A DNA stretch of 64,000 bases, taken from contig AP019702.1 of NCBI GenBank assembly GCA_006739055.1, positions 3,249,388 through 3,313,387 of the forward strand, given 5' to 3'. A model generated the notes under the pieces. That model did no database searches. It was not told where the DNA came from and saw only the letters and a program-made list of their open reading frames with translations. Of the stretch, positions 35,224 to 40,749 are shown one piece after another (position 1 is the first letter of the stretch; every line of letters begins with the position of its first letter). The translations under genes were made by a program, and so were the position numbers. Source of the stretch: Allostella vacuolata (lineage in GTDB: Bacteria; Pseudomonadota; Alphaproteobacteria; ATCC43930; Allostellaceae).

Positions 35224-35364
35224 GAGGGGCTTTCGCTGGGCGGCCATCACCGCCCGGCGAACGCGTCGCCGGCCGGCATGGCGGTCAATTGCCATCCAGT
35301 ATATTGCAAGTGCGAGACGCTCGCAACTGAATGGCCGCTGGATGTGGGACCGGCACTCCGACCG

Positions 35365-35931
35365 CTACGATTTCCGATAGAACAGGGCTCGGCCTGCTGG
35401 CACGAGCTGTAGCAGGAGGTCGAAGTCGGCGACGTTGGCGGTCAGGACCGTGAAGCCGAGCTTCAGTCCCTGCAGATAGAGCACGCAGTCTTGCAGCGCC
35501 CGCAGCCTGCGGTCGGCAGCGTAGCCCTGGAAGCGGCACAACATGCCCGAAAGCAGCGCCGCCCGGCCGAGCACTTCGATGTCGGGCGCCGATGTGCGGT
35601 GCGCCGGCATCGCCAGAATGAGCCCTCGGATTGCCTCGACGACCGAGGACGTGCGTCGGTCCTTCGGGTCGAGCACGCCGACGATGTGCATCAACTCCTG
35701 GATGGCAACGCTCGAATGATTGGCCTGCCGGGTGGCGATCAGTTGGTCGACAAGCGCGGGCGCCCGGCCCTGCAGCTGATCGATGTAAACGCACGTGTCG
35801 AGCAACAGGGCCTGGCCGCCGATCCGGTCTTCTCTGGCGAACGGCAGCAGATCGTCCCTGCGGCGTGCGAGCGTCCGGCCCGGGTCGAACCTCCCCCATC
35901 GCAGCGAGGCGTCGAAATCGAACCCGGCCAC
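35365..35931 (-). CDS. PIN domain toxin of a type II toxin-antitoxin pair
   Basis: A 188-residue protein with a PIN ribonuclease domain. LLLDTCVYID (Asp45), IQELMHI (Glu79), LQDCVLYL (Asp148) and LTANVADFD (Asp169) are the acidic residues of the metal site in the expected order. The preferred start is GTG 35931, one base after the antitoxin TGA. An ATG at 35994 would lie inside the antitoxin gene. About 40 basic residues precede the PIN core, longer than in most PIN toxins. It would cleave RNA unless bound by the upstream antitoxin. Confidence 0.8.
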   Translation of the reverse strand: MAGFDFDASLRWGRFDPGRTLARRRDDLLPFAREDRIGGQALLLDTCVYIDQLQGRAPALVDQLIATRQANHSSVAIQELMHIVGVLDPKDRRTSSVVEAIRGLILAMPAHRTSAPDIEVLGRAALLSGMLCRFQGYAADRRLRALQDCVLYLQGLKLGFTVLTANVADFDLLLQLVPAGRALFYRKS

Positions 35932-35932
35932 C

Positions 35933-36232
35933 TCAGAATCCGAGGGTGAGTTCCGGATCCACCTTGCCGCGAGCCGCGCTGAACGCCTCGGCAAACCCGT
36001 CTTCGAGGGCGATGCAAGCGAGCGCGAAGGCGATCAGGTCGGTGTCGGCCTCGATTCCGGTCCGCTTCTTCGCCTGCTCGACCAGGGCCGGACTTACCCG
36101 GCCTGCAATCCGCCCGCTCCGGTCTTCGAGCAATCCGCCCCGTTTCGCGGCGGCCATCACCGCCGCGAACCGCCCCTGGTTCGCTTGAGGCTGCTCGACA
36201 GGCCTCTCCCTCTTCGTCGCGCCCTTCGTCAT
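35933..36232 (-). CDS. Antitoxin partner of the PIN toxin
   Basis: A 99-residue protein upstream of and nearly touching the PIN gene. A charged N-terminal part (MTKGATKRERPVEQ) is followed by RIAGRVSPALVEQAKKRTGIEADTD, which could be a ribbon-helix-helix-type DNA-binding unit. An acidic C-terminus may wrap the toxin. ATG 36232 is preferred over a TTG at 36262. The family is not firmly recognised; the call rests mainly on gene order. It is divergent from the C45-HicB fusion gene. Confidence 0.65.
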   Translation of the reverse strand: MTKGATKRERPVEQPQANQGRFAAVMAAAKRGGLLEDRSGRIAGRVSPALVEQAKKRTGIEADTDLIAFALACIALEDGFAEAFSAARGKVDPELTLGF

Positions 36233-36301
36233 CGGAACGATCCCGCGTTCAACATCCGACAATTTCGTTTAACATAGGGCCAACAGGAGCAGTTGCAATC
36301 C

Positions 36302-37798
36302 ATGCCTGGAGTGGTGGCAATGACGACGGCGTTGGAGGTCGAGGTCGTCGAGTGCCGCGGCGGTGCGCATGCCGTCGGCCGGCAGCTCGGGCAGGTCTAC
36401 CGCCACGCCCGGCATCGACCGAAGCGCGCGCCGATCATGCCCTTCGACCTCGCCGACGCGCGCCACGCCCTGCTGGAGTTCGCGCCCAACGTCTGGGCAG
36501 AGTTGCAGGGCTTGGCCGAGGGGATGGAAGTGCCGCTGGCCGAGGCGGTCGCGGGCTTCTCCAACGGACGCCTGCCCCATCCGCGGCGCGGCTGCTCCTC
36601 GCTCGCCGCGCCCGGCACCTACGGCCGCAATTACGACTTCGACCCGCGCCTGTACGACCGGGTGATGGTGGCGATCCAGGCCGAAGGGACCCATCCAAGC
36701 GTCGGCTTTGCCGAGCGCTGCACCGGCCGGCTCGACGGGATGAATGCGCCCGGGCTGGCGGTCGGGCTGCATTACGTCAACGACCGCGACGCGCGGCCGG
36801 GCCTTGCCAGCCCATTGATCGTGCGCATGGTCCTCGACCAATGCGCCAGCGTCGCCGAGGCGATCGACCTCCTGCGACGCATCCCGCACGGTCTCGCCTT
36901 CAACTATTCTCTCCTGGACCGTACCGGAGATGCGGCCGTCGTCGAGGCGGCGCCGGACCGGGTTGCCGTCCGTCGCGGGGGGCCGCTCGCCTGCACCAAC
37001 CATTTCCAGTCGGCGGAGATGGAGCCGGCCAATCCCGCCGCGACCGGCGGCTCCCGCCGACGCCTGCCGCCGCTGGAGGCCTGGTCGCGCCGGGCGCTGG
37101 CGGCGGCCGACCTGTTCCGGGTGCTCAACGACCCGCGCTCGGATGCCTTCCACCATGGCTACGAGGCCGGGTTCGGAACCTTGCACACGCTGGTGGCCGA
37201 GCCCGCGACCGCAACGTTGCTGGTCGGCGTCGGCGGCGGCGTCGAACCGAAGCGCATCGATCTGGCAGCCTGGGCCACGGGCCGGCCGCTCGGCCTGCGC
37301 CGCCTGCGCGGCCGGCTCGGCGGCGGAGACCCGAAGCTGGTCCGCGACCGCAACCTGGCCGGTGCGGAGTTCCGCAACGTCGGGCTGGCCGGGGCGCGCT
37401 TCGATGACATCGACTTTTCCGGCGCCGAGATCACCCGGAACTGCAACTTCCGCGGCATGCGTATCGCCGGCATCCCGCTCGACGCCCTGTTCGCCGCCTA
37501 TGACGCCCTCCATGCGGAGCCGAAGCCCATGCGCCACGCCTATCCCTACGAACTCGAGACCGGCGAGGACGGGCGGCTGTTCGTGACCTTCCCCGACATA
37601 TCGCGGGCCGGCGGCGAGGGGCCGACCGAGGCGGAAGCGGTGGCCGCGGCAACCCGCTCGCTGGCCGCGGCGCTGGCCACGCTCGCCGGCTCGGGCCAGA
37701 CGATCCCGCCGCCCAGCCCACCGCGGCCGGGGCAACGCAGCGTCGAGATCGACATGCCCGCCGACGACCGCGAGCAAGGCCGGCCGTTCCGAGGCTAG
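36302..37798 (+). CDS. C45/AAT-type Ntn hydrolase fused to pentapeptide-like and HicB-like domains
   Basis: A 498-residue protein with three parts. Residues 1-330 resemble the C45 acyltransferase/amidohydrolase family: a likely self-cleaving nucleophile Cys98 in RRGCSS, then GRNYDFDP and HTLVAEP near the end. Residues 346-395 carry pentapeptide-like repeats (DRNLAGAEFRNVGLAGARF) ending GMRIAGIPLDALFAAY. Residues 410-488 look like a HicB domain: YPYELETGEDGRLFVTFPDI, TEAEAVAAA, IPPPSPP. If Cys98 becomes N-terminal, the beta subunit would carry both added domains. No HicA toxin is nearby. An internal GGAG at 37516-37519 before ATG 37529 could also start a free 89-residue HicB-like protein. ATG 36320 is an alternative main start. 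Confidence 0.72.
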   Translation: MPGVVAMTTALEVEVVECRGGAHAVGRQLGQVYRHARHRPKRAPIMPFDLADARHALLEFAPNVWAELQGLAEGMEVPLAEAVAGFSNGRLPHPRRGCSSLAAPGTYGRNYDFDPRLYDRVMVAIQAEGTHPSVGFAERCTGRLDGMNAPGLAVGLHYVNDRDARPGLASPLIVRMVLDQCASVAEAIDLLRRIPHGLAFNYSLLDRTGDAAVVEAAPDRVAVRRGGPLACTNHFQSAEMEPANPAATGGSRRRLPPLEAWSRRALAAADLFRVLNDPRSDAFHHGYEAGFGTLHTLVAEPATATLLVGVGGGVEPKRIDLAAWATGRPLGLRRLRGRLGGGDPKLVRDRNLAGAEFRNVGLAGARFDDIDFSGAEITRNCNFRGMRIAGIPLDALFAAYDALHAEPKPMRHAYPYELETGEDGRLFVTFPDISRAGGEGPTEAEAVAAATRSLAAALATLAGSGQTIPPPSPPRPGQRSVEIDMPADDREQGRPFRG

Positions 37799-38271
37799 GG
37801 GGCGTCCCCGCGCCGCGATCGTCGGTCGCGCCCGGGCCAGGTCGTCGCCAGGGCCGTGGCGAGGAAGGCAGCGAAGACCAGGATCGCGCCGCCGGCGTGG
37901 CCATACTCCCAGCGGCGGCGCAGCGACTGCCAGTCATCGGTGGCCGTCGTCCAGTTCGCGGTCGCCTGGTTGCCGGGAAACACCCAGAGGAAGAAGATCG
38001 CGAGGCTGAGCGCGACAAGCACCGCGGCGACGAGCGCCATCCTTGCCGCCGCCCGCTCGCGGCGACGCTCGCCGACGAACAGGGCCAGATTGGCCACGAT
38101 CGCCCCCAGGATCGGAACGGCGAACCACGACCAGCCGGCATAGATGCCCTGGACGAGGAAGTACTCTTCCCGGTCCAGGCCCATCTTGGCCGGCATCTCC
38201 AGCAGGTGGGCGGCGCTCGGTACGAGGGCGATTGCGGTCAAGGTCAAGGCAAGCAGCCTGAGACAGGGCAT
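37795..38271 (-). CDS. DUF1772-like four-helix membrane protein
   Basis: A 158-residue inner-membrane protein with four hydrophobic segments (about 5-22, 43-66, 78-98, 128-145). The region FPGNQATANWTTATDDW and LRRRWEYGHAGGAIL resembles DUF1772/anthrone-oxygenase-like proteins. Function is unknown. Its stop overlaps the end of the convergent fusion gene by four bases. Confidence 0.65.
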   Translation of the reverse strand: MPCLRLLALTLTAIALVPSAAHLLEMPAKMGLDREEYFLVQGIYAGWSWFAVPILGAIVANLALFVGERRRERAAARMALVAAVLVALSLAIFFLWVFPGNQATANWTTATDDWQSLRRRWEYGHAGGAILVFAAFLATALATTWPGRDRRSRRGDAP

Positions 38272-38340
38272 CCGACGGCTCCGGCTTCCGGTCGCACCGG
38301 CGAAATGCCGGATCGACCGGCATCGTTCCCTGGTCGGCGG

Positions 38341-38850
38341 CTACAGGGCGCGGCGAAGGAAGCGGATGCCGGGGCCGGCCGGCCGGTACGCGGGGCATTC
38401 GGCGAAGCCGCAGCGCAGATAGAGCCGTATGGCTTCCGCCATGACGGCCGGCTCGGTATCCAGCACCAGGGAGCGATAGCCCATCTCCCGGGCATGGCGT
38501 GCCGCCGCGCCGACCAGTTCCTCGCCGACGCCGCGCCCGCGCCGGGGCCCACGGACCCACATGCGTTTCAGCTCGGCAGTACCTTCGCCCGCATCGTCGG
38601 CCGGTCGGACGGCGACGCAGCCGGCCGGATGCCCGGCGACGAACGCGAGCAGCAGGGCGCTGCCGGGGCCGCAGGCGCTGGCGGGCAGCGCCGCGATCTC
38701 CCGCTCCAGCCGGCCCATCCGGAAGCCGGGTTCGGCATGGGCCTCGACGAACGCCTTGTACTCCGTGAGCAGCAAGGCCGCGGCCTCGATGACGGCGGCG
38801 CTTGCGTCAAGCGCGAGGGGGACGATGACGGGTGCCTCGGGGGCGGTCAT
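38341..38850 (-). CDS. GNAT family N-acetyltransferase
   Basis: A 169-residue acetyltransferase. Motif A is LKRMWVRGPRRGRGVGEELV and motif B is IRLYLRCGFAECPAY. The start ATG 38850 overlaps the stop of the RNase T2 gene (ATGA), so it is translationally coupled to it. The substrate is unknown. Confidence 0.87.
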   Translation of the reverse strand: MTAPEAPVIVPLALDASAAVIEAAALLLTEYKAFVEAHAEPGFRMGRLEREIAALPASACGPGSALLLAFVAGHPAGCVAVRPADDAGEGTAELKRMWVRGPRRGRGVGEELVGAAARHAREMGYRSLVLDTEPAVMAEAIRLYLRCGFAECPAYRPAGPGIRFLRRAL

Positions 38851-39839
38851 TGCAGGCCGACCGGGTCGACCACGCCACCCGGACAGCCGGGCGCGGTCGG
38901 GGCCGCTGCCGCCATCAGGCCGGCCAGCGAAGAGTCGTCGGCGATCCGCCCCGCCAGCCCGAGCGTCAGCTCGACGACGAGGTTGCGCTGGCCATCGCGC
39001 CTGCAGGCGATGCGCACGCGGTCGCCGGCGCCTGGCCCGAAAGCCGCGTCGAAGGCCGCCCGGACCTCGGCCCCCGTGACCTCGGCACCGATCCGGCTGC
39101 GGAACAGCTGGCGCGGGGCGGCCGCATTCAGCTGGTCGAGCAGCACCAGGGAGTGGCGGAAATACGCCTCTTCCGAGCGGTCCTCGTAGCAGGTCCCGTG
39201 CTTGATCCACTCGTGACGGTCGAGATGCGACATGGCACCCGGCATGGCGCGCTCGAGCCGCCGGCGCGTTTCGGCGGCGAGCGTCATCGCCGGCAGCCGG
39301 TCCCAGTCGCCGCGCTCGTCGGCCGCCACCTGGTCCGGCGGAACCCGGCAGTAGGCGCGGCTGCGCGGCTGCGGCCACAGGCCGTGCAGGGTGAAGTGGT
39401 CCGCATCGAAGCGGCCGGCCGTCTGGGTCCGGCATTCGGGTTTCTCCGGCTTGCCCTCGCAGAAGGCCGGCTGCCAGCTGACCGCCAGGACATAGGATGG
39501 CCGGTCGCCACGCGCCGCTCGACCGACAGGTCCGGCCGGCGCGCCGCAGTGGACGGCCACCCAGCGCTGCCGGGGAACCGCCCCCTCGACCTCGATCCGG
39601 TAATGGGTGGCTGTCTCCTGGTTCCTGGCCAGGAGGGGGTATGTCCTGCCGGCCTCGATCGCGACGGCACCGGGGTTGGCGCCCGTGCGGATCGACTGGA
39701 CGGCCGGGCAGGCCTGCCGGGCCAGCAGCTGTCCCTCCATCCGGACTTCGGCGGCGACGGCCGACGCGGCGAGAGAGAGCAGGAGCCCGGCCGCGGCCCT
39801 CGCCAGAAGCGTCATCCCTGCCCTTCGCGTCGCTTGCAT
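38847..39839 (-). CDS. RNase T2 family ribonuclease, exported
   Basis: A 330-residue secreted ribonuclease. The signal peptide ends near SAVAA (residue 30). The T2 active-site blocks are FTLHGLWPQ (His152) and HEWIKHGTC (His209, Glu210, Lys213, His214). Between signal and T2 core lies an extra stretch of about 80 residues (35-115) with two cysteines, ACP and VHCGAP, of no recognised family. ATG 39815, after AAGGG, is an equally good start. It would degrade RNA in the periplasm or outside the cell. Confidence 0.9.
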   Translation of the reverse strand: MQATRRAGMTLLARAAAGLLLSLAASAVAAEVRMEGQLLARQACPAVQSIRTGANPGAVAIEAGRTYPLLARNQETATHYRIEVEGAVPRQRWVAVHCGAPAGPVGRAARGDRPSYVLAVSWQPAFCEGKPEKPECRTQTAGRFDADHFTLHGLWPQPRSRAYCRVPPDQVAADERGDWDRLPAMTLAAETRRRLERAMPGAMSHLDRHEWIKHGTCYEDRSEEAYFRHSLVLLDQLNAAAPRQLFRSRIGAEVTGAEVRAAFDAAFGPGAGDRVRIACRRDGQRNLVVELTLGLAGRIADDSSLAGLMAAAAPTAPGCPGGVVDPVGLQ

Positions 39840-39966
39840 TCCGTGCCTCTTCCCAGTTGCCCCGCATCCTATCGCCGAACTGGCGGTGACGCAGACGAAT
39901 CGCGCAGGATCGAACGTGACCGAAACGGGCTTCGCCGCCCGCCCCGCCCCTGCCGGAACCCCTTCG

Positions 39967-40749
39967 ATGAAGTTCATCCACGTCACCGACACCCACATCG
40001 TCCCCAAGGGCGAGCGGCTCTACGACCTCGACCCCGAGGAGCGGCTGCGGCTGTGCATCGCCGACATCAACCGCAACCACGCCGACGCGGCCTTCGCGAT
40101 CTTCACCGGCGACCTCTGCCATCGCGGCGAGCCGGGCGCCTATGCGGTGCTGCGCTCCTGCCTGGACGAGCTGCGCCTGCCCTGTCACCTGCTGCTCGGC
40201 AACCATGACCACCGGCTGAACTTCCAGGCCGAGTTCCCCGATGCGCCGCGGGACGCCGACGGCTTCGTCCAGTTCACCCTGGAGACCGAGATCGGCCTGT
40301 TCGTCTGCGTCGACACCAACGAGCCGGGCGTGTCCTGGGGCATTTGCTGCGAACGCCGGCTCGGCTGGCTGCAGCGCACGCTGGATGCGGCCGGCGACCG
40401 CCCGGTCTATCTCTTCCTGCACCACCCGCCCTTCCCGGTCGGGGTGAAGCGCATGGACGAGATTTCGCTCCGGGAGACCGAAGGATTCGTCCGCGTCGTC
40501 GCCGCACGGAGCAACATCCGCCACCTCTTCTTCGGCCACCTGCACCGGCCGATCGCCGGGAGCTGGCGCGGCATCCCCTTCTCGACCATGCGGGCGACCA
40601 GCCACCAGGTGGCGCTCGACTTCGTCATCGCCGGAAAGGTGCCGGGCAGCCACGAGCCTCCGGCCTACGCCGTGGTGCTGGCCGACCAGGACCAGACCGT
40701 CGTGCATTTCCACGACTTCCTCGACACCTCGCCGCGCTTCCTCCTGTAG
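39967..40749 (+). CDS. Calcineurin-like metallophosphatase (CpdA/GpdQ-like)
   Basis: A 260-residue dimetal phosphoesterase. The metal motifs come in order: VTDTHI (Asp8, His10), TGDLCH, GNHDH, LHHPPF and FGHLHR. This is the class III phosphodiesterase pattern, which covers cAMP and glycerophosphodiester phosphodiesterases. It is followed five bases after its stop by an FGGY kinase. A phosphodiester substrate is likely; which one is open. Confidence 0.87.
   Translation: MKFIHVTDTHIVPKGERLYDLDPEERLRLCIADINRNHADAAFAIFTGDLCHRGEPGAYAVLRSCLDELRLPCHLLLGNHDHRLNFQAEFPDAPRDADGFVQFTLETEIGLFVCVDTNEPGVSWGICCERRLGWLQRTLDAAGDRPVYLFLHHPPFPVGVKRMDEISLRETEGFVRVVAARSNIRHLFFGHLHRPIAGSWRGIPFSTMRATSHQVALDFVIAGKVPGSHEPPAYAVVLADQDQTVVHFHDFLDTSPRFLL

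Follow-up and report, generated by a model that had tools for sequence, protein, structure and literature searches.

An in-frame C45 hydrolase, pentapeptide and HicB-like gene in Stella vacuolata and its probable origin by stepwise fusion

Stella vacuolata, a star-shaped bacterium, carries a gene in which a single reading frame runs through a C45 hydrolase domain, a short pentapeptide-repeat module and the N-terminal domain of a HicB antitoxin. The gene lies within the window, i.e. the whole stretch of 64,000 nucleotides that was analysed. The best explanation, to which a probability of roughly two in three is assigned, is a genuine stepwise fusion of three genes, in which a C45 self-processing amide hydrolase/acyltransferase would first have been fused with a small protein of pentapeptide repeats, a pairing still found in Reyranella, and an orphan HicB gene devoid of its HTH half would then have been captured in frame behind this pair in the S. 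vacuolata lineage, the enzyme presumably working as it does in Reyranella. Against this explanation stands the presence of the three-part form in one genome only. A fusion of this kind would represent a small, clean example of how proteins evolve when genes fuse, the intermediates of which live on in other genomes, and it shows, in a culturable species, a HicB fold that is not part of a toxin-antitoxin pair. If the HicB half is functional, an antitoxin domain would have been reused on a metabolic enzyme; if it is not, the gene usefully illustrates a passenger domain. The features referred to below, in window coordinates, are as follows.

35365..35910, minus strand: PIN-type (VapC-like) neighbour, assigned through a S. 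humosa homologue (BLASTP 2e-24), itself a match to PF01850
35933..36262, minus strand: divergent neighbour, which position and size make a candidate antitoxin for the PIN pair, with no family match
36320..37798, plus strand: fused gene in its likelier form, ATG 36320 to stop, 492 aa
36362..37216, plus strand: C45 / AAT N-terminal-nucleophile hydrolase domain, residues 21-305 (498-aa numbering); NF040521, PF03417
36593..36595, plus strand: predicted nucleophile Cys98 and self-cleavage site Gly97/Cys98 (498-aa numbering), assigned from the family
37322..37513, plus strand: short pentapeptide-repeat module, residues 341-404; Pentapeptide_3; tail NCNFxGMxIxGxxxxxLFxAY conserved
37514..37528, plus strand: junction between the pentapeptide tail and the HicB part, placed by alignment; Reyranella relatives stop at the corresponding place
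37529..37795, plus strand: N-terminal domain of HicB (the HicA-binding part, of partial RNase H-like fold), HTH half absent, beginning at internal Met410

Reading frame, start and assembly

The plus strand is open throughout from 36302 to 37798 (498 codons plus stop), which bears out the description, in an earlier note made from the sequence alone, of one unbroken frame across three parts. The start adopted in that note, ATG 36302 (498 aa), is less likely than ATG 36320 (492 aa), since the latter is preceded, at a distance of 8 nt, by GGAG, and its translation, MTTALEVEVVECRGG, lines up with the N-terminus, MTKAWRVDVLECRGS, of the Reyranella relatives. A longer form initiated at ATG 36302 is also possible, given the presence of AGGAG 12 nt before that codon. 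GC content by codon position is similar in the three parts (0.76/0.53/0.88, 0.70/0.47/0.89 and 0.77/0.61/0.90).

It is highly improbable that the fusion arose from a sequencing or assembly error, whereby two neighbouring genes would appear as one because a stop codon had been lost in the sequence only. Consistent with such an error, the fusion was seen in no second genome, and the adjacent frame has a TGA across TATGAC just past the pentapeptide tail (read by eye). However, the genome, which forms one contig of 5,834,761 bp (AP019702; Stella vacuolata ATCC 43931), is a hybrid Nanopore and Illumina assembly at 330x with Pilon polishing (PMC6687932), and a false fusion at the junction is therefore unlikely. 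Moreover, the junction contains no homopolymer, and since both parts are in the same frame, a lost stop would require a substitution or an in-frame deletion error. As judged from the assembled sequence, as opposed to reads, the three-part reading frame is real. An open frame of 502 codons on the opposite strand (36269-37777, minus) is probably a by-product of the high GC content. Searches with PADLOC and Rfam returned no matches, and a scan for promoters and terminators found none.

Identity of the three parts

Assignment of the first part to the C45/AAT-type Ntn hydrolases, as the earlier note had proposed, is secure at the level of sequence. The domain matches C45_proenzyme (NF040521, NCBIfam) at 6e-63, with 213 bits versus a cut-off of 85, and AAT (PF03417, Pfam) at 5.4e-44, with 151 bits versus a cut-off of 23.2. 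Cys98 within RRGCSS, followed by GRNYDFDP, is present as described. In an alignment of 18 C45 proteins the residues G91, C92, S93, R103, N104, Y105, D106, D139, N142, N195 and N227-H228 (492-aa numbering) are invariant; the Cys nucleophile after Gly and the catalytic-site motifs, GCS, RNYD and DGxN, are thereby all found. A profile of C45 proteins searched against the PDB retrieved choloylglycine hydrolases at about 4e-5, as expected for a Cys Ntn hydrolase. The likeness to C45 / AAT (acyl-CoA:6-aminopenicillanic acid acyltransferase) enzymes extends to domain length, the GC self-cleavage motif and the RNYD and DGMN motifs, whereas the S. vacuolata protein differs in the addition of pentapeptide and HicB modules. 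Self-cleavage of the precursor is predicted at Gly97/Cys98, upon which the new N-terminal Cys of the large subunit would attack the amide bond of a small substrate, with the pentapeptide and HicB modules being carried on the C-terminus of the same subunit.

The second part is, to judge by its repeats, a short degenerate pentapeptide module. The pentapeptide-like run noticed previously is present and ends GMRIAGIPLDALFAAY (the tail is also given as NCNFRGMRIAGIPLDALFAAY). Pentapeptide_3 is matched by the segment alone at 2.5e-6 and 28.1 bits, just above the cut-off of 27, and by the whole protein at 24 bits, under that cut-off; some relatives score better. The same module occurs as a standalone small protein in Tistlia consotensis and in genome G004, 59-60% identical to the window, and it is rare, being detected with its profile at 1e-6 in 12 of 385 genomes of the class, several of them weakly. 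One further small protein from this pentapeptide family (L180:1438-1926, genome G153) has a C-terminal extension of about 70 residues, which is possibly another in-frame addition.

The third part falls below the Pfam cut-off for HicB_lk_antitox (0.004 on the segment, with 17.7 bits versus 27). It is nevertheless called HicB, since profile, PDB and Foldseek comparisons agree on this identity. E. coli HicB (6u0i/6hpb) is matched by sequence at 2e-4 with phmmer and at 4e-35 with the family profile, the domain is modelled at a pLDDT of about 90-98, and HicB structures lead the Foldseek list for this model with a probability of 1.00; the profile match and the Foldseek result both point to the N-terminal partial RNase H-like fold. 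The domain search by segment and the full-chain structure prediction that the earlier note had suggested were each informative in part: the former returned C45 and Pentapeptide_3 with HicB_lk_antitox left below cut-off, while in the latter (mean pLDDT 53) the C45 part was modelled with low confidence and only the HicB part is reliable. The motifs LFVTFPDI, TEAEAVAAA and IPPPSPP, on which the original call of a HicB-type domain was based, are all found, and the call holds for identity, although not for completeness, as only the N-terminal half is present. Aligned full-length HicB proteins continue into an HTH half of ~65 residues that is absent from both the fused copy and a separate S. humosa gene. 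Columns that are invariant in the alignment are retained in the fused part. Within the PEA motif, 82 of the 89 HicB-like segments counted have Glu, and Arg takes its place in two copies alone, the fused one and that of S. humosa. In fold and conserved residues, then, the part resembles the N-terminal domain of HicB antitoxins (E. coli 6hpb/6u0i; B. pseudomallei 6g1c), but it differs from these in having no HTH, no HicA partner gene and an enzyme to which it is fused. Viral contigs contained no relative when searched with single HicB sequences, and yielded ordinary HicB antitoxins, mostly of about 138 aa, when searched with the HicB profile.

HicB proteins without a DNA-binding domain are already known, as the commonest bicistronic form, as are solitary hicB genes and, in class 8 composite HicB, a HicB fold that follows two other domains at the C-terminus, according to Gerdes 2024 (PMC10865869). 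The S. vacuolata protein shares with class 8 and classes 1-2 of that scheme a HicB fold that ends a larger protein and a HicB that lacks the DNA-binding domain. Those classes, however, are encoded together with a HicA gene, in hicBA or hicAB operons, whereas the S. vacuolata gene has no HicA and has a C45 partner. The combination with a C45 hydrolase is what is probably new: titles and abstracts found on HicB fusions or orphan HicB contained no C45-HicB fusion, and novelty of the C45-pentapeptide-HicB combination is rated as probable, as opposed to established, since the literature on HicB fusions was covered in part.

Separate forms and probable order of fusion

The architecture was also sought elsewhere, as the earlier note had proposed, and the C45 and pentapeptide pair was found whereas the three-part form was confined to one genome. 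No second three-part gene was present among 61 genomes of relatives, 43 of the order, 385 of the class, 61 of the Reyranella order and 398 of the phylum, these samples being overlapping. A contig search with residues 1-404 yielded no protein with HicB, the matches being C45+pentapeptide proteins and a single pentapeptide protein that stands alone, and among plasmid records none covered 80% of the query.

Each of the presumed intermediates survives. A C45 domain alone is encoded in genome G574 by a protein 45% identical to that of the window, which ends where the pentapeptide part would start. C45 with pentapeptide is, judging from six intact genes (L031, L033, L034, G374, G456 and G458), an established two-domain protein of Reyranella-type bacteria that ends without HicB. 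These proteins, of about 433-447 aa, have the same order of parts and 50-55% identity over the first 400 residues, and they stop shortly past the final LLAVY/LFAAY tail, where the HicB part would begin; the S. vacuolata protein, for its part, is shorter by about 25 residues in the linker and the first repeats. In Reyranella soli NBRC 108950 (L032:4935-6308) an in-frame TGA lies exactly between the C45 and pentapeptide parts. In three genomes the C45+pentapeptide gene overlaps by 4 nt the following gene for a FAD-binding monooxygenase (L031:4245-4248, L033:6302-6305 and L034:6299-6302; family PF01494 matched on the L033 copy), an arrangement that suggests a shared pathway for the two products.

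The third component is encoded separately in S. humosa (G002) by an HTH-less HicB gene of 79 aa, the product of which is 71% identical to the fused part and has its start aligned exactly to Met410. At the DNA level identity is 74%, and the matching stretch opens at 37530, within the internal start codon. Comparison of the two sequences gave dN of 0.21 and dS of 1.02, with 15/11/41 differences by codon position, values that show constraint on the HicB sequence since the copies parted, the time before fusion included, and not necessarily in the time after it. Changes unique to the fused copy number 9, those unique to the separate copy 5 and ambiguous ones 9, counts too few for constraint to be distinguished from slight relaxation. 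A syntenic origin for the S. humosa gene was sought and none was found, the only S. vacuolata relative of its neighbour being 40% identical; the single HicA match in that genome is at 2.27 Mb, far from the HicB gene. On these comparisons, the HicB half appears to derive from an orphan gene, still separate in S. humosa, that was captured in one species only.

The coincidence of the internal Met with the start of the S. humosa gene also fits a reading in which the HicB half is made additionally, or mainly, as a separate protein from ATG 37529, such that two products would come from the locus, the long enzyme and a HicB-like protein on its own. A GGAG within the junction (37516-37519), 9 nt upstream of that codon, points the same way. 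However, GGAG so placed is not rare in GC-rich DNA (about 6%, by rough estimate), and the long product is expected as well since the frame is continuous; separate synthesis is accordingly viewed as unlikely. In the preferred account, that of stepwise fusion, the HicB half is most likely a recently captured, folded binding module. It would fold independently and be dispensable for catalysis, with the enzyme predicted to work as in Reyranella.

Genomic setting and possible partners

The earlier note's observation that no HicA is near was upheld. The genome contains two HicA matches, at 2.55 and 4.20 Mb, neither of which reaches the Pfam cut-off; both lie some 0.7-0.9 Mb outside the window (3.249-3.313 Mb), and hence there is no adjacent hicA. 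The HicB part might nonetheless bind a HicA toxin from elsewhere, thereby sequestering it or allowing it to regulate the hydrolase. Neutralisation of HicA is carried out by the N-terminal domain of HicB (PMC11594946), for which good folding is predicted in the fused protein and in which the invariant columns are intact; the two HicA matches elsewhere in the genome would provide candidate partners. Conversely, both HicA loci have their own HicB, the Glu to Arg change in the PEA motif may signify a changed partner, and the Reyranella relatives of the enzyme have no HicB part, so that binding of HicA is considered distinctly doubtful. Similarly slender odds are given to the broader idea that the HicB half was recruited as a regulatory or targeting domain, through which HicA or another partner controls the hydrolase, or through which the enzyme acts as a HicA sink. 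The new regulated system envisaged in the earlier note thus found no support, given that the C45+pentapeptide pair ends without HicB in Reyranella and that the HicB half appears to be a capture in a single species.

The adjoining PIN protein reported previously is PIN-type by homology, although for the window copy Pfam gives no match and the VapC match is weak (E 0.076); its S. humosa homologue, which comes from the corresponding slot, matches PF01850 at 3.8e-6. The congeners have no matching DNA between 35.33 and 39.97 kb of the window (35330-39965), both flanks being conserved, which indicates that the fused gene lies in a stretch not common to the three congeners compared. In at least two of them, G002 and G001, the slot is occupied by an operon for an ABC sugar transporter and a LacI-type regulator, named by reading the translations, and the S. 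humosa slot also has a PIN-type pair. Downstream of the fused gene, in the same unshared stretch, a GNAT acetyltransferase gene and an RNase T2 gene are located on the minus strand (38341-40007).
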